The notes beneath the pieces are model-generated. The model saw nothing but the letters and a program-made list of their open reading frames with translations, was not told the DNA's origin and searched no databases. A program made the translations under genes and the position numbers. Positions 41,811 to 54,571 of a DNA stretch of 64,000 nucleotides are shown here, one piece after another (the stretch's first letter is position 1; every line of letters begins with the position of its first letter). Source of the stretch: Endozoicomonas numazuensis (GTDB lineage Bacteria > Pseudomonadota > Gammaproteobacteria > Pseudomonadales > Endozoicomonadaceae); assembly GCF_000722635.1 (NCBI RefSeq), contig NZ_JOKH01000004.1, positions 142,773 to 206,772 of the forward strand, read 5' to 3'.

Positions 41811-41886
<76 letters not shown>

Positions 41887-43870: not shown

Positions 43871-44014
43871 ATGTCCATAATTTCAGATTGCACTATCTGC
43901 AATAACTGTAAACGGCCTCTGATTCTGCGAGTAGGGAAGAAAAATATGCCCCACTATGCACATAGAAAAAATGAGGCATGTGGAAAAATTGAGCCAGTAG
44001 TTAGGGAGGACTGA
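43871..44014 (+). pseudogene. CoiA-like zinc/nuclease N-terminal fragment 1
   Basis: A 47-residue frame, CTICNNCKRPLILRVGKKNMPHYAHRKNEAC…, matching the N-terminal segment of competence CoiA-like proteins (CxxC…L..R.G….HFAH…..C). A full CoiA is several times longer, so this is a remnant or a very short stand-alone domain. A related fragment lies at 47861, on the other side of the ankyrin-viperin pair. Confidence 0.5.
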
Positions 44015-44071: not shown

Positions 44072-46792
44072 TCAGTGACAGCTATTCCTCACATCCTTCA
44101 AATATTGAAGTATTTTCACATAGTCCTGCATACTACCTGTTGTCCGCTTGTGTCGGCGCATATCCGATAACACCATATCCGCATACTTCGAATCAGACGC
44201 TGCTTGAGCAAGCTCCAGTGGAGTAAAACCATTTTTATCAGGAACGCTGACTAAAGCCATATCTTGCTGCGCAATGACCTTTACTATTTTGACGTGACCA
44301 GACAGTACGGCTGCATGCAAACAGTTCTGTTTGTTTGGTTTCGTTTGAACATCTGCCTTTGCACCCGCGCTTACAAGAAGCTCGGTGCACTTGAGAGATC
44401 GCGAGAGCACCGATGCGTGCAAAGCAGTTCGTCCATGATAATCCTGTGAACCTGTAGTTGCCCCCGCATTCAGCAAGATCGTAAGTAAAGCTTCATCCCC
44501 TTGGTTTGCAGCCATCATCAGGGGTGTTTGCGCCTTGTAGTCTGCAATATCCACCAGCTTGGGGCACTCTTCTATAACTATTTTTATAATTTGCTCGATA
44601 GACGAGAGAACTTGCCTAGCCGCCTTCAGTTCATTCACAGGCATCTTGTTTAGAAAAGCTCGTTGCTGGTCTCGCATTGAGTAAAACATTTTCATCCACA
44701 GCATCAGGATTGTGTCACCCTGAGCATATTGCAGGCGCTTGGTTTTCAAAGGTGACTCTTGATAAATCCTGCGGACAGTGTGCCAGTCGTCAAGTTTCAA
44801 ACTCTGAAGCACTTTATCCATATGCGCTTTAACTGCTGCCTCAGGAAAGCGAGATGGTTTATTAAAACCGTGATAGGGGCGATACAACTCATCCCAAAAG
44901 AATTCAGCTACCCCACTGACAACATCTTCAATGTCAGGGATATCTATAGGGTTAGCTCCCTGAAATATGTCTCCATCAAGCATTCTACGGAAGTACACTT
45001 CATGGTTATTGATATTCAGACTGGAAGTAGAAAGCTCTACTGCAAATGCGTCTCGTGCTATCTCACCAGAGAGAGAGCCATGATTATGGGTTTTACAGGC
45101 ATCCAGAGCCTGCTTAAACAACTTCAGAGCCCCATCAAAATCATTCTGTGCCACCAAGTGCTTCGCTTTGTATTGAAGAAAAGGTGCCTTCCACTGTTCG
45201 TTGTCACCTACCAAGCCTTCCAGTTCAAACAGTAATGTCTCTACTTTTACCTGTGAATCCTTTGTAAAATGTCTTCGATCATTATTTAAGTGCGTGCTTA
45301 GCTGTATCAGCAGAATCCCTATACGCTCTGCGGGAGATGAAGCGATTTCGTCTGCCCTCTTTAAACACAGATCTTGTAATTTGGTCGTGTTCTTTCTATC
45401 CATAGCCGCTGCAAAAACTTTTTCGAAGTCATTTTCTTTTTGCAGATGCTTCCAGGCTCCACCTTTATTGATCTTTTTTCTGAACTCGGAAGCTGCTGTT
45501 AACTCATCACTCTCAGCTTTCAGCTCACTAACCATACCTTCAATCAGTGCTGGTAAGTCTTCAGGCTTTGAGGCACTAATATCAGCCAGACCTTCATTAG
45601 GGTCAAGCTTCTGGAATTTTCTCGATAGAGCCTGACCAACATCTTTTCCGGTAAAACCGTAGGACTTTATGATGGACTGGTACAGCCCCATTTTGAGATA
45701 GTCCGGAATCTTACTCTCAAAATACTGGTTCTCTCTGGCCTCATCTATACCGCGACCACACTCTTCATTCGCTTCAACGGTCAAGTTGTAAATTTGCTGG
45801 AAGTGGATAGCGAGCTGTAGCAATTTATTTTCTGATGAGTCTGCACAGCGAATATCCACACCAGGACACAGAAATTTCAGCAACCTTTTGTATCCATCCT
45901 GCATCATGCGAGCAACAGAAAGCCTCTGCCTGATAGTAACCAATGATGGTTCTGCATAGCGTTCACTCAAACATTCGATCAGATAGAGCTGTTCATTCTT
46001 TGAGTGTTTGCCTTCTAGCAACTCAGAAATTAATTCAGCAGGGGCAGGGATTTCTCTAGCCAACTTCTCACTGGTCAGTTTTTTCCTATCAATAAACGCA
46101 CAGGCTTCTTCCCATCGTTTTTCAAGAGGCAGATTACTATCATCTGTAAAACGCCCATGAAACTCGAATTTAGAGCCCTCTCTAAAGTAATCGTTAATTG
46201 TCTCAACTGAAGGGGTTTGACCTTTTTTCCACCAGTTGTACAAGTTTCGCTCTATCGATTCCGCTTTATATTGAGCTTTAAAACCATTAGCGGCTGAATC
46301 CATAGGGCAGCCCAACAAGTCCATCAGCCACTCAATTACCATTATCACAGGAAGAGCCACTTCCAACTCACCATTTTCGGCTTCTCTGAGATGAGGCAAG
46401 TACCAGAAACTTCCACCTGGCATGCCTTTATCCGTAGTGGTGTCCAGTTGCCAAAACGCAAGATGTCTCGCCAGAGCTGGCACATAGGAGTAGCCCAGCA
46501 AGTGCCAGAGAACCTGCTCCTGACTTGCAGTTCCTGTCCATAGGTTCAGTTCCAACTCTTTGTTGAAGGGAAGCCAGGACTCAAAAAGATTTCTCCAGAT
46601 ATCAGTGAACTGATCTTCAGCCAACCCAAGCGTATTACTTATGTCCCAGACCCGTTCAGCCATAATTTCATTTTGAAGCTTTAAGGGTTTCTCAAGCCGG
46701 GAGATTTTATGCTTGTCCTGAGTCTTCACACCAGAACCAAAGCTTTGTGCTACTTCGATTAAAATCCGCTCAAAAGATGGTGCTACAGCCAT
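44072..46792 (-). CDS. Large helical/TPR protein with C-terminal ankyrin repeats
   Basis: A 906-residue soluble protein divergent from the viperin gene. The first 700 or so residues are helical and unrecognised, with a TPR-like stretch around LQYKAKHLVAQNDFDGALKLFKQALDACK (about 545-573). The end carries about four ankyrin repeats: YKAQTPLMMAANQGDEALLTILLNAGA, DYHGRTALHASVL…LLVSAGA, NKQNCLHAAVLSGHVKIV and DKNGFTPLELAQAA (about 755-880). GGAG lies seven bases before the ATG. No signal peptide or enzymatic motif is seen. Placement suggests a partner or regulator of the viperin locus, but this is inference. Confidence 0.75.
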   Translation of the reverse strand: MAVAPSFERILIEVAQSFGSGVKTQDKHKISRLEKPLKLQNEIMAERVWDISNTLGLAEDQFTDIWRNLFESWLPFNKELELNLWTGTASQEQVLWHLLGYSYVPALARHLAFWQLDTTTDKGMPGGSFWYLPHLREAENGELEVALPVIMVIEWLMDLLGCPMDSAANGFKAQYKAESIERNLYNWWKKGQTPSVETINDYFREGSKFEFHGRFTDDSNLPLEKRWEEACAFIDRKKLTSEKLAREIPAPAELISELLEGKHSKNEQLYLIECLSERYAEPSLVTIRQRLSVARMMQDGYKRLLKFLCPGVDIRCADSSENKLLQLAIHFQQIYNLTVEANEECGRGIDEARENQYFESKIPDYLKMGLYQSIIKSYGFTGKDVGQALSRKFQKLDPNEGLADISASKPEDLPALIEGMVSELKAESDELTAASEFRKKINKGGAWKHLQKENDFEKVFAAAMDRKNTTKLQDLCLKRADEIASSPAERIGILLIQLSTHLNNDRRHFTKDSQVKVETLLFELEGLVGDNEQWKAPFLQYKAKHLVAQNDFDGALKLFKQALDACKTHNHGSLSGEIARDAFAVELSTSSLNINNHEVYFRRMLDGDIFQGANPIDIPDIEDVVSGVAEFFWDELYRPYHGFNKPSRFPEAAVKAHMDKVLQSLKLDDWHTVRRIYQESPLKTKRLQYAQGDTILMLWMKMFYSMRDQQRAFLNKMPVNELKAARQVLSSIEQIIKIVIEECPKLVDIADYKAQTPLMMAANQGDEALLTILLNAGATTGSQDYHGRTALHASVLSRSLKCTELLVSAGAKADVQTKPNKQNCLHAAVLSGHVKIVKVIAQQDMALVSVPDKNGFTPLELAQAASDSKYADMVLSDMRRHKRTTGSMQDYVKILQYLKDVRNSCH

Positions 46793-46889
46793 GTCTACGC
46801 TCCGTTTAGTTATTATTGGTCCATTTTAAGAAGACGCACATTCACTCCAATGAAAATTAGCTTTACCCCCCATAAATGGAGATGTTTCA

Positions 46890-46899
46890 GGGGGGGGGG
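46890..46899. repeat. G10 homopolymer in the divergent viperin/ankyrin promoter
   Basis: Ten consecutive G residues 71 bases upstream of the viperin ATG and about 98 bases upstream of the ankyrin-protein ATG. A run of this length in a promoter is prone to slipped-strand length change. Confidence 0.9.
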
Positions 46900-46970
46900 T
46901 AGAGGTACCTTTCATTTTTTTATTGTTGTCATTAACGGAAATTCTCCTCACTGGATCAGAGGAGATAACA

Positions 46971-47855
46971 ATGAAAAACCAAACTGTGAGTGAACTGGTT
47001 ATCAACTGGCACATAACTGAAGCGTGCAATTATGACTGCAAATTCTGTTACGCAAAATGGGGCAGGCCAGACGAAATACACAGAGAGCCAAAGCTGATTA
47101 ATGACACTCTTAACTCTCTGGCAAACTTCTTTCTTCACAGTGGTAACAAGCTCAAAGAACAAATGGGATATGAAAATGTCAGGCTCAACTTTGCCGGAGG
47201 TGAACCTTTTCTCCTGAAGAAAAAATTCACCGATGTCCTTTCAGCTGCTCACAAAGCAGGATTCAAACTATCCATCATTACAAACGGGCATTACCTCACT
47301 CCATCATTTATTCAGGAGAATGCAGGCATACTCGATATGGTTGGGATTAGCTTTGATGCACAGTCTCAAATGGATAGAGAGATTATTGGCCGAGTAGACA
47401 GACACGGTAGATCATTTGAAACCCAGAACCTTGTTGAAACCGTCAACCTGTTCAGATGTATAAACGACAATATAAAAATAAAGGTCAACACAGTAGTGAA
47501 CTCGGTTAACTGGGAGGAAGACTTCTCAGAACTTATCCACCAGCTAAAACCTGAGAAGTGGAAAGTACTACAAGTGCTGCCAGTACTCGACTCTGTCAGC
47601 CTTGAGGTGACAGACCATCAGTTCAACGACTTTGCCAGAAGACACCAACTGAATGGGTTAAACCCTCTGGTAGAAAGCAATGAAGTCATGGCAGGGTCAT
47701 ACCTGATGATCGATCCTAAAGGACGTTTCTATCAAAACAGCTATGGAAACAAGGGCTATCAGTACAGCAGTTCTATTGCCCAAGTGGGAGCAGAGACTGC
47801 ACTAACACAAATAGATTTCTCTCCAGACCACTTCTCCGCTCGCTATCGAAACTGA
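46971..47855 (+). CDS. Prokaryotic viperin (pVip), antiviral radical SAM enzyme
   Basis: Viperins convert CTP (and in bacteria also GTP or UTP) to 3'-deoxy-3',4'-didehydro nucleotides that terminate viral RNA synthesis. The 294 residues carry the radical-SAM cluster motif CNYDCKFC (Cys 19, 23, 26), then LNFAGGEPFL, the GISFDAQS…IGR segment, the viperin-specific INSVIN-like KVNTVVNSVNWEEDF and KWKVLQVL segments, and the C-terminal VESNEVMAGSYLMID…GRF block matching human viperin's PESNQKMKDSYLILD. ATG 46971 follows AGAGGAG (46958-46964). No nucleotide kinase gene adjoins it, unlike many pVip loci. Which NTP is used cannot be told. Confidence 0.9.
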   Translation: MKNQTVSELVINWHITEACNYDCKFCYAKWGRPDEIHREPKLINDTLNSLANFFLHSGNKLKEQMGYENVRLNFAGGEPFLLKKKFTDVLSAAHKAGFKLSIITNGHYLTPSFIQENAGILDMVGISFDAQSQMDREIIGRVDRHGRSFETQNLVETVNLFRCINDNIKIKVNTVVNSVNWEEDFSELIHQLKPEKWKVLQVLPVLDSVSLEVTDHQFNDFARRHQLNGLNPLVESNEVMAGSYLMIDPKGRFYQNSYGNKGYQYSSSIAQVGAETALTQIDFSPDHFSARYRN

Positions 47856-47860
47856 ATTGA

Positions 47861-48046
47861 ATGTCCTTTGTAACGGAGCTTCGACTGCATGCTGGGGAGA
47901 TCAAACCCCACTACTACGCTCATCGTAAAAATGAAGCCTGTGGGGTTGCGCATTCACAGCTGAGTAAGCTCAGGAAGTATCGAGCCAATGTAGGGTATTC
48001 AGCAGTCACCCTACACCTTCACAGGTCAGTGTCCACTTCCTTTTGA
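47861..48046 (+). pseudogene. CoiA-like fragment 2
   Basis: Six bases after the viperin stop a frame encodes ELRLHAGEIKPHYYAHRKNEACG, closely similar to fragment 1 (LRVGKKNMPHYAHRKNEACG). The rest is unlike CoiA. It is a truncated relic; the first cysteine pair is lost. Confidence 0.45.
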
Positions 48047-48939
48047 GTGCAGGTAAACATATCCAGAATTTCTTGTGTAGCTACTCCAACTCCCTCAATC
48101 GCCTGAACCTGCTCTTCACGATATGGGTTCCGGTTGAATAGCCTCAATATCTTCTGCTTAAGCACGCTCAACACCCCCATTGGGTAAACAGTATTGAGCT
48201 TCTCATCAATATTGGAATTATATGCTTCACAGATTTCTCGCATCTGCTGTGTATATTCTTCTACAGCCTGAAGCTGTTTTCTGAAACCCGGCATTTTCTC
48301 TGAGAGAGACTGAAGTTCTGAATCCACCTTTATTTTCTCAGCTTCGACCTTTTCAGCCTTTTTATGGGTGCCCCAGGCTGAAAATATAATAATGGGTGCA
48401 GCGACAATTCCACCTAACACCATCATGCCTCCACTCATACCAGCTCCACCAGCAGCCAAAGCGCCTCCACCAAACCAGGCCAGTGTCGCATTTGTAGCAG
48501 CAACTCCAGATAAACCGGCAATGGCCGTCCCTGTTGATGCACTGCCCAAAATTGAGACCAGTGCCCAGGCACCAACAGCTGCAGAACCTCCTAAAACCGA
48601 ACCAAAGCCAACACCTGCTGCGGTACTAAATGAAGAACCAAACGATTCAAGCCTTTCTAATGATTCAGACGGAGATATCTCTGTTTGAAGTGAGGTATTA
48701 ACTGCAGCTTTAAGAAGCTTCTCTACTCGATCGAGTCGATACTTAACTCTCTCGACAGAGTTGCCTAGCTGCTCAAGGTTACTATTGACCGACTTATCTA
48801 TAGCCGAGGCTTCGTCATGAACCTCTTTATAAGCATTATATGAGGCCTGATATTGTTCCTGAGCCTCTTCCAGTCGACCATATCCGCCAAGCGTGACGAT
48901 TTCATTGAGGACACGAAAGCAGTCCTTTACAACACCCAT
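48019..48939 (-). CDS. Glycine-zipper membrane protein flanked by coiled coils
   Basis: A 306-residue protein with an N-terminal coiled coil (about 20-80), a central block of about 85 small and hydrophobic residues (104-190; GSVLGGSAAVGAWALVSIL, GTAIAGLSGVAATNATLAW, GGGALAAGGAGMSGGMMVLGG), then a second charged coiled coil (192-260). No signal peptide. The layout resembles pore-forming or membrane-inserting proteins such as apolipoprotein-L-like and glycine-zipper effectors; no specific family is recognised. AAGGAAAG precedes the ATG at 48939. It lies between the viperin locus and the IS element. Confidence 0.6.
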   Translation of the reverse strand: MGVVKDCFRVLNEIVTLGGYGRLEEAQEQYQASYNAYKEVHDEASAIDKSVNSNLEQLGNSVERVKYRLDRVEKLLKAAVNTSLQTEISPSESLERLESFGSSFSTAAGVGFGSVLGGSAAVGAWALVSILGSASTGTAIAGLSGVAATNATLAWFGGGALAAGGAGMSGGMMVLGGIVAAPIIIFSAWGTHKKAEKVEAEKIKVDSELQSLSEKMPGFRKQLQAVEEYTQQMREICEAYNSNIDEKLNTVYPMGVLSVLKQKILRLFNRNPYREEQVQAIEGVGVATQEILDMFTCTQKEVDTDL

Positions 48940-48984: not shown

Positions 48985-50716
48985 CCGACATTCACCACCT
49001 AACCTGACATTTTCCTGAAGTCTGCTATTTATCAGTTAAGCAAATATCAGGAAACCGTCTTATGCCTCCTGTTCAGTACCGCACTCAGGTCATGGATCAC
49101 CTCGGCTTAGTCGCAGGAATGTGCAAAGAGCTTGGGATCGTCGAACACATTGACCAGCGTGCCCCAAAGCAGTCCGACGAGTGGAAGGTTTCTCATGGTG
49201 AGTGCATTCTCGCCATGATTCTCAATGGCTTGGGGTTCGTTGGGCAATCTCTCCATATGTTTCCGCAGTTTTTCGACAACAAACCCCTCGACAAGCTGAT
49301 CAGGGAGGGAGTCGAACCTGAGCACTTAAACGACAAAGTGCTCGGAAGAGCACTGGATGAGATGTTCAACCTGGATGTCAGTAAAGTCTATTTCGAGCTG
49401 GCTATCAAGGTAGCAAAGCACCTCAAGCTGCCATGCGAGGCGTTAAACCTTGACGGTACAAGCCTACACGTCGATGGTCGTTATAATAGCGACAGCGAGG
49501 AGAGCGACGAAGACCTTAATTGCATCAGGATTTGCAAAGGCTACAGCCGTGACCATCGGCCAGACCTGAACCAGGCCATTTTGCTTCTGATGACCGAAAA
49601 CAAAGCGGGCATTCCCATGTTTATGGCCGCTGCCAGCGGCAATGTGACCGACAAGACGAGTTTTCAGTGGGTCGTATCCCAGCACCTGAAGAGTTTCAAG
49701 GCCGCACTGGAAGCCCGTTACTTCGTTGCTGATGCTGCGTTGTATGTAGCAGAAACGCTTCAAAAACTGGATCAACAAGGGCAGTGGTTCATTTCCCGTG
49801 TTCCCCTCAATATCGCCGCCGCCAAAGAGCTGGTGCAGAGTGCGCCAACACGCACTATGAAGGCTGTGGAAGGTTTTGAGCATTACGAAGCCATAAAGGT
49901 GTCGTCTGATTATGCTGGCGTAGAACAACGCTGGGTTTTATTCCGCAACAAGCAAAGCCGGAAAACTGAACAGAAGACACTGACAAGACGTATGCAGAAA
50001 AAATCTCTGGCAGAGTGCAAGAAACTGGAAAAACTGGGCAAAAAAGCGTTCCGGTGCGAGAAGGACGCCCTTGAAGCCTTCAAGCAGTGGCAAAAGCAAT
50101 CTGAACTCTGTCAGGCTGAGCCACAGATTATTTCAAAGCCCTGTTACAAGACCAAAGGTCGTCCCGCTCACGGGGCAGAGCCGGATCATCTGGAGTACTT
50201 CGTGACAGGGTGTTGCTCGGTCACTGTGCAAACCCGACGGGATGCTGAGGCATCGCTGGGTTGCTTTGTTCTCGCTACGAACGACACTGATACAGGCAGA
50301 CTGACCACCGCAGAACTGCTCAGGACTTACAAATCTCAGCAACAGGTTGAAAGGGGCTTCCGTTTTCTGAAAAGCCCGGACTTTCTGGTGTCGTCTTTGT
50401 ATCTGAAGAAGCCGGAACGCATTGAGGCTTTATTAATGGTGATGACGCTTTGCCTGATGGTCTATGCTGCTATCCAGCACCGGATTCGTCATGAGCTGAA
50501 AAGGCAAAGTCGGACGTTTCCTGACATGAAGAAAAAGCCAGCCCAGAACCCTACAGGCAGGTGGGTTTTCTTCTGTTTTTCGGGTGTCCATGTGTTAACG
50601 GTCAACGGGACGGAGAAACATGTAATCGGTCTCTCGGAGAGTATGACGACAATAGCCCTTGTCTTGGGGTCAACGTACCAAGAAATTTATTCCTAATTCG
50701 GGGTGGTGAATGTCGG
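48985..50716 (+). mobile_element. IS1634-family insertion sequence
   Basis: A 1.73-kb element bounded by 15-bp perfect inverted repeats CCGACATTCACCACC (48985-48999) and GGTGGTGAATGTCGG (50702-50716), with one transposase gene. No matching target duplication is visible in the flanks (…CTGAAT against TTGGAA…), so it may have undergone later rearrangement. Confidence 0.85.
49062..50696 (+). CDS. IS1634-family transposase
   Basis: DDE transposase of the IS4/IS1634 type, 544 residues and apparently intact. The N-terminus matches the DUF4277-type domain of the family (DHLGLVAGMCKELGIVEHID). The catalytic core has LNLDGTSLHVDGRY with the first Asp (near 131), YFVADAALY with the second (near 226), and the YKSQQQVERGFRFLKSP segment with the Glu near 430. 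Confidence 0.93.
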   Translation: MPPVQYRTQVMDHLGLVAGMCKELGIVEHIDQRAPKQSDEWKVSHGECILAMILNGLGFVGQSLHMFPQFFDNKPLDKLIREGVEPEHLNDKVLGRALDEMFNLDVSKVYFELAIKVAKHLKLPCEALNLDGTSLHVDGRYNSDSEESDEDLNCIRICKGYSRDHRPDLNQAILLLMTENKAGIPMFMAAASGNVTDKTSFQWVVSQHLKSFKAALEARYFVADAALYVAETLQKLDQQGQWFISRVPLNIAAAKELVQSAPTRTMKAVEGFEHYEAIKVSSDYAGVEQRWVLFRNKQSRKTEQKTLTRRMQKKSLAECKKLEKLGKKAFRCEKDALEAFKQWQKQSELCQAEPQIISKPCYKTKGRPAHGAEPDHLEYFVTGCCSVTVQTRRDAEASLGCFVLATNDTDTGRLTTAELLRTYKSQQQVERGFRFLKSPDFLVSSLYLKKPERIEALLMVMTLCLMVYAAIQHRIRHELKRQSRTFPDMKKKPAQNPTGRWVFFCFSGVHVLTVNGTEKHVIGLSESMTTIALVLGSTYQEIYS

Positions 50717-50828
50717 TTGGAAGCTTGATAAATTATTGCTCATCTCTTTAGATGTTGACATTAAGAACAAAAACAACAAGCCTACGGTATCACTTTATTC
50801 AGGTATCACAGATAAGGGAGCCATACTG

Positions 50829-51560
50829 TTGAACCAACTTGTTCAAATAGAAGAAGTCCTTGAAGAACTTGAACAAGGATACAGCGGCGTATTTCGCTGT
50901 GTTGGCCAAGATGGTCTGCAGTATTATGTAAAAGGACATAATGTTGGCAGAGAAGATCAAGCAAAAGAGTGGATTGCAGCTCAGTTAGCAAAAGAATTTG
51001 GTTTACCAATAGCGAACTTTGCTCTGGCAGAAGTTGATGAGTACATGCATGAGTACTTATCTCCAAGTTTAAAGAAAATAGGGCACGGCCTTTGCTTTGC
51101 ATCACAAGAAGTCAAAATGGCCCAGTGGCCAGAACCTCATGTCATTGCTCAGCGTGTAAATCCTGAGCTGCAAAACGACGTATTATTCTTTGACTACTGG
51201 ATACGAAATCAAGACAGAACTAAAGGAAACCCTAATCTACTCTGGGTTCCTCATGATGAGGAACTGTTCGTCATAGACCATAATTTGGCCTTTGACCCTA
51301 AATTCAACAAAGATGACTTTTTGAACTATCACATTTTTTCTGAAGCCAGAAATCGTCTTTTTGGAGATATGTTCATACAGGAGCAGTATCAAAGCAGGTT
51401 AGACAAGGCTTTAGAGTCATTTCAACCAGCAATTAAAACCATATCAGAAGCATGGCAGTGGCATGACCTTGAGGAGACACGCCCTTTTAAGCTAGACTCT
51501 GATGCCCTATTGTCCATACTTGAAGAGTATAAGAAACCTGAATTTTGGAGCATGAAATGA
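50829..51560 (+). CDS. HipA-like kinase (HipA_2 type)
   Basis: Small kinase-fold protein related to the HipA family. The open frame continues upstream into the IS end, but TTG 50829 has an AAGGGAG site eight bases before it and gives MNQLVQIEEVLEELEQGYSG, the usual N-terminus of the family; the product is 243 residues. Visible features are GLQYYVKGHNVGRE with the likely ATP-binding Lys, KEWIAAQLAKEFGLP, FFDYWIRNQDRTKGNPNLLW and FVIDHNLAFD. It overlaps the DUF3037 gene by 16 bases. Such pairs occur in many genomes and are suspected toxin-antitoxin or defence modules; function is not established. Confidence 0.75.
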   Translation: MNQLVQIEEVLEELEQGYSGVFRCVGQDGLQYYVKGHNVGREDQAKEWIAAQLAKEFGLPIANFALAEVDEYMHEYLSPSLKKIGHGLCFASQEVKMAQWPEPHVIAQRVNPELQNDVLFFDYWIRNQDRTKGNPNLLWVPHDEELFVIDHNLAFDPKFNKDDFLNYHIFSEARNRLFGDMFIQEQYQSRLDKALESFQPAIKTISEAWQWHDLEETRPFKLDSDALLSILEEYKKPEFWSMK

Positions 51561-52360
51561 ATAAGTACGCTTGCCGTTATGCCATAGTGCAATTCATGCC
51601 CTACCCAGAAACCGGTGAGTTCGCAAATGTAGGAGTGATATTAGCAGTCCCTCAAAAGAACATATTTACGTTTAGGCTTGAGACAGCTAAAACTGCTCGC
51701 TTAACTCACTTTTTCAATCATCTAGACCGAAAAATATACCTCAGTGCTGTGAAAGGTCTAGTGGAAGAGCTGAAATACTATCAAACAGCTGTTCGAAACA
51801 ACCAACTCAAGGCTGACACTGCCTTTGACAATCTCGTTCGTCCTCTAGAAACCATCCTCCGGTTCAGCAAAGAGCGTTTAAAGTTGGTTAATGGTATAGA
51901 AAAGGTTGAAGACGACTTATTTGAGCGTTTTGTTATGCACGACTTTGCAAAAGCCCCTAACTATGAGGGACAGCTTCAGCAAAAGATCGCTCAAATGGTT
52001 AGGGCAATTGATCTTGAACATAAATTCAAGAGAAAAACCCTTGGCCCTGATACATACAAAATTACCATGCCATTGGTTCAAGAAAAGGATGAAAATACTC
52101 GCATAATTCAACCTCTTTACTTTAATCAGGATACTCCACAAGCAGTAATTGAACATGGTAACAAGTGGGCAGGAAAACTCGATACTCTGAGGGATTTTGG
52201 AGCATTACCTGATGAAATTCTTATTCCAGCGAAACAGCCAGTAAAAAGAAATAAAGAATTTACACTGGCTTGGGATCTAGTTAGAAAGAAATTGGATCAC
52301 TTTGGTGAAATCATCAAAGCAGCTGATACAGGCTCTATCAGAGGCTTTGCAAAGAACTAG
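51545..52360 (+). CDS. DUF3037 protein, partner of the HipA-like kinase
   Basis: The 271 residues begin MNKYACRYAIVQFMPYPETGEFANVGVILAVPQ, the DUF3037 signature. The rest is mainly helical with no catalytic motif that I recognise. The start lies inside the end of the HipA-like gene, so the two are translationally coupled. Candidate roles are antitoxin, substrate or adaptor of the kinase; no evidence separates these. Confidence 0.8.
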   Translation: MEHEMNKYACRYAIVQFMPYPETGEFANVGVILAVPQKNIFTFRLETAKTARLTHFFNHLDRKIYLSAVKGLVEELKYYQTAVRNNQLKADTAFDNLVRPLETILRFSKERLKLVNGIEKVEDDLFERFVMHDFAKAPNYEGQLQQKIAQMVRAIDLEHKFKRKTLGPDTYKITMPLVQEKDENTRIIQPLYFNQDTPQAVIEHGNKWAGKLDTLRDFGALPDEILIPAKQPVKRNKEFTLAWDLVRKKLDHFGEIIKAADTGSIRGFAKN

Positions 52361-52363
52361 TAT

Positions 52364-53090
52364 CTACTCAATTTTATCGAGTGGGTTAAACTTTGCCGCC
52401 TCTCCAAGGTGCTCTGGTGCTAGATGTGCATACCTCATTGTCATCATAAGCGATTGATGACCAAGAATTTTCTGCAAAGTCAGAATATTCCCACCATTCA
52501 TGACAAAGTGACTTGCGAATGTATGACGTAGAACATGGGGAAGCTGCCCCTTGGGCAATTCAATCTTAACTTTACGACATACCCTCTTGAATGCCTCATA
52601 ACATGGCGAAAAAACATTCTGCTGATGACCCGCCCCTGTGCTGGATGACTTGCTCATACAGCTCAGGAGAAATCGGGATTGTCCGAGTCTTACCGTTCTT
52701 GGTTCTGGCAAAGGTGATCCGGTGTGGTGCAAGCTGTGACCTTCTCAAACCCTCAGCCTCACTCCACTCGCACCAGTGGCAAGACATATCCGAGTCACCA
52801 GAGCTGTATCCTGATTAACCAAATAACTATCGAGAACTCGTAAGAGGTTTTTGATTTGCTCGATGGTGAGATATGACAACTCCCTTTCATCAACCTTTAC
52901 TCTCTTAACATTCTTGAGTGGGTTTTCATGCTTCCTCTCTCCCAGTCTCTCAAGCTCGTTGAACATGGATCGGAAGTAGGCAAGGTAGTGGTTGGTCGTA
53001 TCAGGGCTGACACCGGCCAACATCTTTTTCGCCCTGAATGACAGAAAGGCTTTGGAGTCGAAATGTGCAGCTTTTGGGTCACCGGTTTAT
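52364..53090 (-). pseudogene. Tyrosine recombinase (phage-type integrase), frameshifted
   Basis: Three frames on the minus strand together encode a site-specific recombinase. The N-terminal part is GVSPDTTNHYLAYFRSMFNELERLG. The middle is EAEGLRRSQLAPHRITFARTKNGKTRTIPI with the first catalytic Arg. The C-terminal part is LPHVLRHTFASHFVMNGGNILTLQKILGHQSLMMTMRYAHL with the H-x-x-R, His and Tyr. At least two frameshifts (near 52770 and 52620-52730) break it, and the N-terminus is incomplete. It marks the right end of the island that starts at tRNA-Thr. Confidence 0.85.
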
Positions 53091-53336: not shown

Positions 53337-54455
53337 TCAATTTGAGCGACTTACCAGGTAAGGAGTAATGTCATTACTATCTCTGGTCATCAGATCAAGT
53401 AACTTCCGGTGCACAAACAATTTCTCCTTGCCGGACTGAATTTCGTCGAGAACCCCAATAGAACAGAGTTGTTTGAGATAAAGAGAAGCTGTCTGTCGCT
53501 TGGCTATGTTTCTTTCAGTCAAATTACTGATTCTGCAGTAAGGCTGTTCAAAAATAACCTGGACCAGCTCATGGCTGTATATTTTAGGCGCTTGTTGTTG
53601 AACCCATCGGGATGTCAGTTCCATCAACTTCCTAATACCCGCTATTTTTTCCCGGGTCCAACAGGAAGTGTTTTCTACTGCCTGCAGCATATATAAAACC
53701 CATGGCTCCCAGACTTGCTCATGAGTTACCTGATTGAGCAACTGATAGTATTGAGCTTTATTTCGGACAATGTAATGACTCAAATAGAGAATGGGTAATG
53801 TCAGTAAATCCTGCTCCAGCATGTAGAGAATATTCAATATCCGACCGGTTCGGCCATTGCCATCGGTAAAGGGATGAATAGCTTCAAACTGATAATGAGT
53901 TACGGCCATTTTCACCAGCGGGTCGGTGTCGTCTTCAGCGTGAACATATTGCTCCCAGTTTGCCAGCAAGTCACGAATAACGATTTCTCCAACAGGAGGG
54001 GTATAAATTATCTTGCCCGTCAGATCATTGGCCAGTGTCGTACCTGGCACTTTGCGAACATTCATCTCACAGCCTTTTATAGTACTGCAGACTGCGACCG
54101 CCATATTGGTAGATATAGGCCTTTGGGCCAACTGCTGAACACCCGAGAAAAGTGCTGTTCGGTATCTAAGAGCCTCTTTGGTTGCAGGGTCTGCTTGGCT
54201 GTCCTCTTCTGCATACTGGAATAACTTATCGGTGGTTGTGACAATATTCTCTATTTCGGAACTGTCTTTCGCTTCCAGAAGTGGCAGCATATTGATCAAC
54301 AGCTCCTGATTCGGGAGTAATTCTCCAGCCTGTTTAAGCTCTGCCAGAGCAGATCGAGCCCTGATACATGCTTTGAGAACAGGTACTGTTTCCAGATTCT
54401 GAGTAGGAGGCAGAGGCGGGAGCTGGTTGTAAGGCTGATCGGGCTGCCACTTCAT
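53337..54455 (-). CDS. Fic-domain AMP-transferase, class II (SoFic-like)
   Basis: Fic proteins AMPylate target or self hydroxyl side chains. ATG 54455 gives MKWQPDQPYNQLPPLPP, the normal opening of this family, and a 372-residue product. The active-site motif HPFTDGNGRTGR lies at about residues 194-205. An inhibitory-helix motif SSEIEN ([S/T]xxxE[G/N]) lies near residues 65-70, N-terminal to the Fic core, which defines class II. A C-terminal winged-helix region (about 290-350, NIAKRQTASLYLKQL) is present, as in self-regulating Fic proteins. Several ATCGACA sites lie just upstream. Confidence 0.93.
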   Translation of the reverse strand: MKWQPDQPYNQLPPLPPTQNLETVPVLKACIRARSALAELKQAGELLPNQELLINMLPLLEAKDSSEIENIVTTTDKLFQYAEEDSQADPATKEALRYRTALFSGVQQLAQRPISTNMAVAVCSTIKGCEMNVRKVPGTTLANDLTGKIIYTPPVGEIVIRDLLANWEQYVHAEDDTDPLVKMAVTHYQFEAIHPFTDGNGRTGRILNILYMLEQDLLTLPILYLSHYIVRNKAQYYQLLNQVTHEQVWEPWVLYMLQAVENTSCWTREKIAGIRKLMELTSRWVQQQAPKIYSHELVQVIFEQPYCRISNLTERNIAKRQTASLYLKQLCSIGVLDEIQSGKEKLFVHRKLLDLMTRDSNDITPYLVSRSN

Positions 54456-54474
54456 GTTTATAAACCGGTAAAAA

Positions 54475-54571
54475 ATCGACACGTAATCAGCTTATGTCGA
54501 TAGTATCGACATGTAAAGAAAACGTGTTCAAAAAAATCAATTTTATCGACACGTTCTACAGTTATGTCGAT
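54475..54571. promoter_or_regulatory. Operator cluster upstream of fic: five ATCGACAY/RTGTCGAT sites
   Basis: ATCGACACGT at 54475-54484 and 54545-54554 are each followed after exactly nine bases by ATGTCGAT (54494-54501 and 54564-54571), two identical dyads 70 bases apart. A further ATCGACATGT at 54505-54514 makes a perfect palindrome with the neighbouring site, ATGTCGAT-AGT-ATCGACAT (54494-54512). The cluster starts 20 bases upstream of the fic ATG and probably covers its promoter. Confidence 0.8.

Follow-up and report, generated by a model that had tools for sequence, protein, structure and literature searches.

A prokaryotic viperin gene and a divergent ankyrin-protein gene share a conserved, paired promoter element: a candidate two-gene defence module with a proposed dedicated regulator

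A viperin gene faces an ankyrin-protein gene in Endozoicomonas numazuensis

We analyzed a stretch of 64,000 nucleotides of Endozoicomonas numazuensis (NCBI RefSeq assembly GCF_000722635.1, contig NZ_JOKH01000004.1, positions 142,773 to 206,772 of the forward strand; hereafter "the window"), in which the gene of a prokaryotic viperin (pVip), a radical S-adenosylmethionine (SAM) enzyme, lies back to back with the gene of a 906-residue helical and ankyrin-repeat protein, the proposed regulator of the pair (Table 1). The two start codons are separated by only 178 bp, so that both promoters have to lie within this gap, which also contains two inverted copies of a conserved sequence element. Homologous loci and genomes are referred to below by our own handles (L and G numbers, respectively).

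The original prediction, made from the letters of the DNA alone, had taken the 294-residue protein for a viperin without a nucleotide kinase as close partner, and both statements hold. The protein scored 344.5 bits against the NCBIfam equivalog model NF038283 (cut-off 180) and 332.6 bits against the PADLOC pVip model, solved viperins align with it along its length, and its translation contains CNYDCKFC and NFAGGEPF, which we take to be the radical SAM CX3CX2C and NxAGGEP(F) motifs of viperins. Prokaryotic viperins were reportedly described by Bernheim and colleagues in 2021; characterised pVips make 3'-deoxy-3',4'-didehydro (ddh) nucleotides, and phage transcription is stopped, while animal viperin is induced by interferon. 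No nucleotide kinase was found beside or fused to the window viperin among its neighbours on either side: the enzyme is unfused, and its neighbours are the ankyrin protein, a 61-residue CoiA_N-like open reading frame (ORF), a 306-residue protein resembling the PADLOC candidate PDC-M09A, and a transposase.

Architecture and spread of the ankyrin protein

Residues 1-897 of the 906-residue protein match positions 1-879 of the 880 in the PADLOC profile PDLC02908 ("Ankyrin"), thus end to end. The same profile matched all eight relatives of the ankyrin protein that were scanned (367 to 1547 bits), the best being a viperin-linked Pseudomonas protein (L018). The model has no description in the library; its accession follows closely after those of the pVip models, a hint at a link to viperin already made by its authors, although none of the texts consulted states this.

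The protein had been described as a helical protein with tetratricopeptide repeats (TPR) and ankyrin repeats. The ankyrin part stands, as repeats near the C-terminus were the only Pfam matches above the cut-offs; the TPR matches stayed below. In a Foldseek search with the whole model, ankyrin-type structures were among the best 50 matches listed, and a further test of the C-terminal assignment covered mainly residues 649-906. Towards the N-terminus, residues ~216-286 resemble an XRE-type, lambda-repressor-like helix-turn-helix (HTH) DNA-binding domain, with modest scores and marginal sequence similarity to XRE proteins. A second, degenerate HTH may lie at residues 148-205, a candidate for which solved structures gave no support. 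The N-terminal profile had no sequence match in the PDB at E ≤ 10, and a search of 50,697 phage records (E ≤ 0.01) gave no relative of the N-terminal 720 residues. Nor were relatives of these residues found in IMG/VR by a pattern scan, or relatives of viperin by a single-protein pattern scan; such scans reach close relatives only.

Homologues of the ankyrin protein are rare, occurring in 3/293 genomes of the order and 1/369 of the class, with the window's own genome included in both counts. Parts of homologues are carried by four Acinetobacter plasmids; at L005, L006 and L007 (Acinetobacter plasmids), they are incomplete, stand beside insertion sequences and have no viperin. As a general rule, an essential role of the ankyrin repeats was rejected: the viperin-linked homologues at L045 and L047, and the one at L030, which has no viperin, stop at 655-668 residues, and ankyrin-coding DNA was not found downstream of them. 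The repeats are present in the window protein and missing at L045 and L047. The L043 homologue also stops early, but little contig follows, and L036 retains ankyrin-coding DNA outside the open frame.

The divergent pair recurs across genomes

Homologues were searched with a query made from the N-terminal part (720 residues) of the window protein and two homologues from a whole-genome search (G026, G138); since neither of the latter adjoins a viperin, the query was not selected for viperin. A single scan of the contigs of ~85,000 genomes (two peptide patterns, then tblastn) returned 35 ankyrin homologue loci. In 19 of these, tblastn with the window viperin detected a viperin adjoining the ankyrin gene, on the opposite strand and with divergent starts in every case (19/19; L016, L018, L021, L023, L026, L028, L031, L032, L033, L035, L036, L037, L040, L041, L042, L043, L044, L045 and L047). 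The 16 loci without viperin include L034, whose contig breaks off ahead of the ankyrin start, the partial L048, and L049 and L050, which are short or weak matches. One more pair (L052) was found starting from the viperin side. The association of the two genes, which had been proposed from their position, is thus borne out by the survey.

From the viperin side, the link is loose. We collected nine complete viperin genes besides that of the window from family searches in 398, 369 and 293 genomes (overlapping draws; the disrupted fragment L054 was excluded), and only one of them adjoins an ankyrin homologue within flanks of ~1.5 kb, so that most viperins (8/9) are without this partner. No ankyrin gene was found near plasmid viperins in the stretches fetched from 5 of the 19 plasmid records with a match. 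In two Pseudoalteromonas plasmids a DUF4145 gene adjoins viperin, and one of these also has a deoxynucleoside kinase.

Joint evolution and cassette transfer

Clustering of ORFs (≥ 75 codons) from 37 loci (the 35 plus the window and L009) placed the ankyrin family in all 37 and viperin in 19, including the window, where the L018 viperin found by tblastn had been dropped by the ORF clean-up; the next commonest neighbour family, a 117-residue protein, occurred in six. The viperin and ankyrin distance matrices are strongly correlated (r 0.93 for 21 loci; r 0.89 for 16 loci with near-copies collapsed), and none of 10,000 permutations reached as high a value in either set. On the ankyrin tree (35 rows), the viperin label needs seven changes, indicating that the link is either old or was formed repeatedly.

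The two genes are also found together on transferred DNA. L037 (Pseudoalteromonas) and L044 (a Colwellia metagenome-assembled genome), which belong to two families, share exactly one block of 4.36 kb at 97% identity, with unmatched flanks; it contains the 117-residue protein gene, viperin and the ankyrin gene. A Colwellia ponticola isolate (L042) has the same block, at which its contig ends. For two Vibrio loci (L035, L036), only the corresponding block is common to both, at 92%. The 117-residue protein gene (L035:6566-6919) lies inside this cassette and follows viperin in six loci (L035, L036, L037, L041, L042, L044); its product has a weak treble-clef match (E 0.019).

It could be argued that two functionally unlinked defence genes merely came together by chance in defence islands. 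Both are indeed found in defence-rich mobile DNA, and the island in the window has HipA_2/DUF3037 genes as well as a SoFic gene beside it. We consider such hitch-hiking highly improbable in view of the 19/19 divergent and immediately adjacent arrangements, their broad phylogeny, the neighbour counts, the matching distances, the two-gene cassette and the shared element described below; chance adjacency was rejected on these grounds.

A paired promoter element between the two genes

Reading the intergenic regions side by side revealed a conserved element of 20-21 bp, GGGGGGTAC-N5-TTTTCA, oriented towards the ankyrin gene, together with an inverted copy oriented towards viperin. The promoter region originally proposed to be shared by the two window genes fits this paired element between starts 178 bp apart. 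Because the consensus was read from the same loci, we compared its score in each region with those in dinucleotide-shuffled copies of that region. At a threshold of ≤ 2/100 shuffles, 16 of 34 loci showed the ankyrin-facing copy, 22 the partner-facing copy and 30 at least one of them, where one or two of the 68 tests would be expected to pass by chance; by this measure, neither copy was found in L023, L029, L043 and L047.

In all 16 loci with an ankyrin-facing copy scoring at least 12 (a count that adds L048), the distance from TTTTCA to the ankyrin start is 58-66 nt. After removal of nine near-copies, the peak of TATAAT-like hexamers on either side fell precisely 23 nt past TTTTCA (0/500 shuffles each), with a mean match of 3.5 of 6 in 12 ankyrin promoters and 3.19 of 6 in 16 partner promoters (11 of viperin and 5 of the short peptides described below). 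In the window, the putative -10-like hexamer of the ankyrin promoter deviates by one nt from the offset seen in the family, as the element there is one nt longer; on the viperin side, this hexamer is weak. The element would accordingly span roughly -55 to -36 and lie immediately upstream of the -35 position. TTGACA-like hexamers peaked at offset 19 (3.92 and 3.25 of 6), but this peak was rejected as -35 box, since it partly coincides with the -10 block and leaves too little distance from it.

At the edge of the viperin-facing copy, the window has a run of G residues that varies in length among closely related loci (12 and 7 in L035/L036; 8, 7 and 7 in L037/L042/L044). This variation resembles that of phase-variable promoters, and the tract length might tune expression.

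The element follows the ankyrin gene, and its partners can differ

In order to assign the element to one of the two genes, we compared viperins with and without an ankyrin gene. The element was present (score ≥ 11.5 in 200 nt) at 17/21 ankyrin-linked viperins and upstream of 0/13 ankyrin-less viperins (best score 10 in 220 nt), and we thus rejected it as a property of viperin itself. It is also found beside ankyrin genes without viperin (L017, L019, L020, L024, L025, L027, L046) and accompanies the ankyrin gene across beta- and gammaproteobacteria. The simplest reading is that it serves a local regulator; no gene other than the ankyrin gene is present throughout.

In most partnered loci the proposed effector is viperin; five viperin-less loci (L022, L030, L038, L039, L048) have divergent short ORFs at its position instead, encoding Gly/Asn-rich peptides of roughly 30-50 codons (starts uncertain in L022 and L048). 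These ORFs lie ~100-400 bp upstream of the ankyrin gene, with two each in the Marinomonas loci L038 and L039. Their endings are shared: GNxSGxGRGNNPPxGK in L022, L030 and L048, and GxxGTN in both copies of L038 and L039. Among the other loci fetched by then, the motifs occurred only in L003 and L008 (same genome as L038). The L038/L039 ORFs stand beside genes that, from a reading of their sequence, appear Tn7-like (TniQ/TnsE type).

The partner-facing copy was present in 22/25 loci with a divergent viperin or peptide versus 0/9 loci with neither (Fisher 4e-6), a comparison uncorrected for kinship, in which five of the nine loci represent one clade and L048 is outside the count. One of these nine (L025) has another divergent gene, coding for a DUF4365 protein. 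At L009 (G138), which has no facing viperin, a radical SAM gene of another PADLOC candidate family (PDC-M51A, 458 bits; L009:5059-6351) is located two genes after the ankyrin gene. It is conceivable, though we would lean against asserting it at present, that the ankyrin protein is the founding member of a family of one-component transcription regulators responsive to infection, with exchangeable effectors swapped under one portable promoter element.

The ankyrin protein as a possible dedicated regulator

Our preferred interpretation, to which we give close to even confidence, is that the ankyrin protein is a dedicated regulator of viperin and of itself, binding DNA through its XRE-type domain and the shared element. 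It builds on the computed pairing, orientation, joint evolution, cassette transfer and the paired element tied to the ankyrin gene, and on the indicated HTH; the binding itself, the direction of control, the sensing and the outcome for phage defence are what we infer from them. The locus would then be a two-gene mobile defence module with viperin as effector, making ddh-nucleotides that, by analogy with characterised pVips, would stop phage transcription. The XRE-type domain at residues ~220-285 would bind GGGGGGTAC-N5-TTTTCA at the copy facing the ankyrin gene and at the inverted copy facing viperin, each presumably just upstream of -35 and followed at 23 nt by a -10-like hexamer. The helical middle and the C-terminal repeats would probably detect infection and jointly switch the two promoters. 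An activator appears more likely than a repressor, because the element occupies a position common for activators and the promoter hexamers are weak. Of the roles originally envisaged for the partner (sensor, regulator or second effector), that of regulator is thus favoured, since the inverted element travels with the ankyrin gene and not with viperin and an XRE-like domain is indicated, while the other two remain as alternatives.

Two observations count against a dedicated activator. The first is a weak -35-like hexamer on the ankyrin side, immediately following TTTTCA and 17 nt ahead of the -10 hexamer (3.42 of 6), which fits a repressor that silences a costly viperin until infection removes it. 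XRE-type regulators are often repressors, and autorepression commonly makes use of paired operators in divergent arrangement. The element, however, appears to lie upstream of the promoter hexamers and not on them, and a -35-like hexamer is not evident at the matching place in the partner direction (1.69 of 6); we therefore regard repression as unlikely.

The second is the occurrence of the element elsewhere in the window's own genome, where a loose pattern found 19 matches compared to 8 for the reversed control; two of the 19 are the locus itself, and four others score at least 13. Two of these four, on contigs C9 and C6, are inside long coding frames; the others are on C5 and C1. The C5 copy (G000:C5:81432, L075; score 14) is located 38 nt before the start of a frame of ~300 codons, and no -10-like hexamer was seen by eye at offset 23. 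A few further targets may exist in this genome. Such matches would fit an unlinked host factor binding the element, with the ankyrin protein acting as second effector or as a protein that interacts with viperin, such as a sensor contacting the enzyme or its product. The large helical/ankyrin architecture and the correlated divergence are also compatible with physical contact between the two proteins, and viperin-less ankyrin genes have a type III restriction enzyme, TmtA-like and PtuA-like genes as neighbours in other clusters of defence genes, a setting that would suit a gene with a defence role of its own. A host factor nevertheless does not readily explain the element: across the host genomes (14 handles representing 13 genomes, as G026 and G1022 are identical) the loose pattern is only weakly enriched (104 matches versus 76 for the reversed control, locus copies included), yet the element follows the ankyrin gene across beta- and gammaproteobacteria. 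A host-wide promoter is thus not favoured, and the resemblance of residues 216-286 to DNA-binding HTH domains speaks against a second effector. We rate this explanation as somewhat unlikely, though a serious competitor of the dedicated regulator.

The surrounding genomic island

The pair had been placed in a tRNA-bounded island, and this is correct for the left end, formed by a tRNA-Thr gene; the right end is marked by the remnant of a tyrosine integrase and not by a second tRNA. In a same-genus genome (G007) the same flanks are present, none of the matches listed between them is to the island, and a 48-bp copy of the 3' part of the tRNA-Thr is located near the right flank.

Two short CoiA_N-like ORFs (YAHRKNEACG) flank the pair, the second beginning 5 nt after viperin, and could possibly represent a scar or repeat at the cassette ends. 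Further to the right follow a 306-residue protein with a glycine-rich stretch, a transposase with at least six more copies at 100% in the window's own genome, and a HipA_2 kinase/DUF3037 pair. A gene for a SoFic-type Fic protein is located just outside the island; the genomes G007, G185 and G206 of the same genus have homologous DNA.

Table 1. Features of the viperin-ankyrin locus and its surroundings (window coordinates; element scores compared with dinucleotide shuffles)
Feature	Position	Strand	Remarks
tRNA-Thr, left island end	41811..41886	+	ARAGORN
CoiA_N-like short ORF	43871..44014	+	
906-residue helical/ankyrin-repeat protein, proposed regulator	44072..46792	-	PADLOC PDLC02908, 763 bits; AlphaFold2 predicted local distance difference test (pLDDT) 87
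Ankyrin repeats	44195..44593	-	codons for residues 734-866
XRE/lambda-repressor-like HTH (predicted, modest support)	45935..46147	-	codons for residues 216-286
Possible second, degenerate HTH	46178..46351	-	codons for residues 148-205; best region in sliding hhalign scan (31-34%)
-10-like hexamer TAAAAT, putative ankyrin promoter	46823..46828	-	one nt off family offset
Element facing ankyrin gene, GGGGGGTAAAGCTAATTTTCA	46851..46871	-	score 14, 0/100 shuffles as high; begins 79 nt before ankyrin start
G10 homopolymer	46890..46899	+	edge of viperin-facing element
Inverted copy facing viperin, GGGGGGTAGAGGTACCTTTCA	46894..46914	+	score 13, 0/100 shuffles as high
Prokaryotic viperin (pVip), radical SAM enzyme	46971..47855	+	294 residues, ATG start
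CoiA_N-like short ORF	47861..48046	+	
306-residue protein	48019..48939		similar to PADLOC candidate PDC-M09A (99 bits)
Transposase	49062..50696		DUF4277 + DDE_Tnp_1
HipA_2 kinase + DUF3037 pair	50703..52360		similar to PADLOC candidate PDC-M66A/B (49 and 65 bits)
Broken tyrosine integrase, right island end	52364..53023	-	two pieces, searched apart; Phage_integrase + Int_N matches
SoFic-type Fic protein	53337..54482		just outside island

Comparison with known systems

The viperin enzyme is already known, and its pairing with the ankyrin protein may have been catalogued already; what is new here is the conserved paired promoter element. Among the matches listed in a literature search on viperin/pVip and ankyrin regulators, as far as their accessible parts go, there was no account of the pair, the element or the peptide swap (the founding pVip study was outside the coverage), nor of how bacterial viperins are switched on. 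If correct, a dedicated back-to-back regulator with a defined 20-bp element would provide a bacterial counterpart to the interferon induction of viperin and a testable handle on it. It would furthermore explain the function of the undescribed "Ankyrin" defence family, and further effectors, such as small peptides, could be found by looking behind the element.

Other viperins have been described with additional genes as well. According to the accessible parts of the respective articles, hicA and relE are partners of viperins (PMC10865869), and a 2026 survey lists a viperin type with a TPR protein, reported only in archaea (PMC12988326). These systems are likewise paired with an extra gene, but their partners differ from the one studied here, and those parts mention no shared inverted promoter element; the accessible part of a third article (PMC13064858) had no bearing on the viperin-ankyrin pair.

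Compared to pVip systems in general, the window viperin shares the NF038283 match and the radical SAM cysteines, whereas a kinase was not seen beside it, and it is paired with a divergently encoded ankyrin protein whose gene shares the promoter element. The window protein matches PADLOC PDLC02908 end to end, a model for which the material consulted mentions neither a regulatory element nor an HTH. The closest parallel to the proposed control is found in XRE-type regulators with divergent operators. Unlike these, the ankyrin protein comprises 906 residues with helical and ankyrin regions and its sequence similarity to them is marginal, but the predicted HTH at residues ~220-285 and the operator-like inverted elements between divergent genes are similar.

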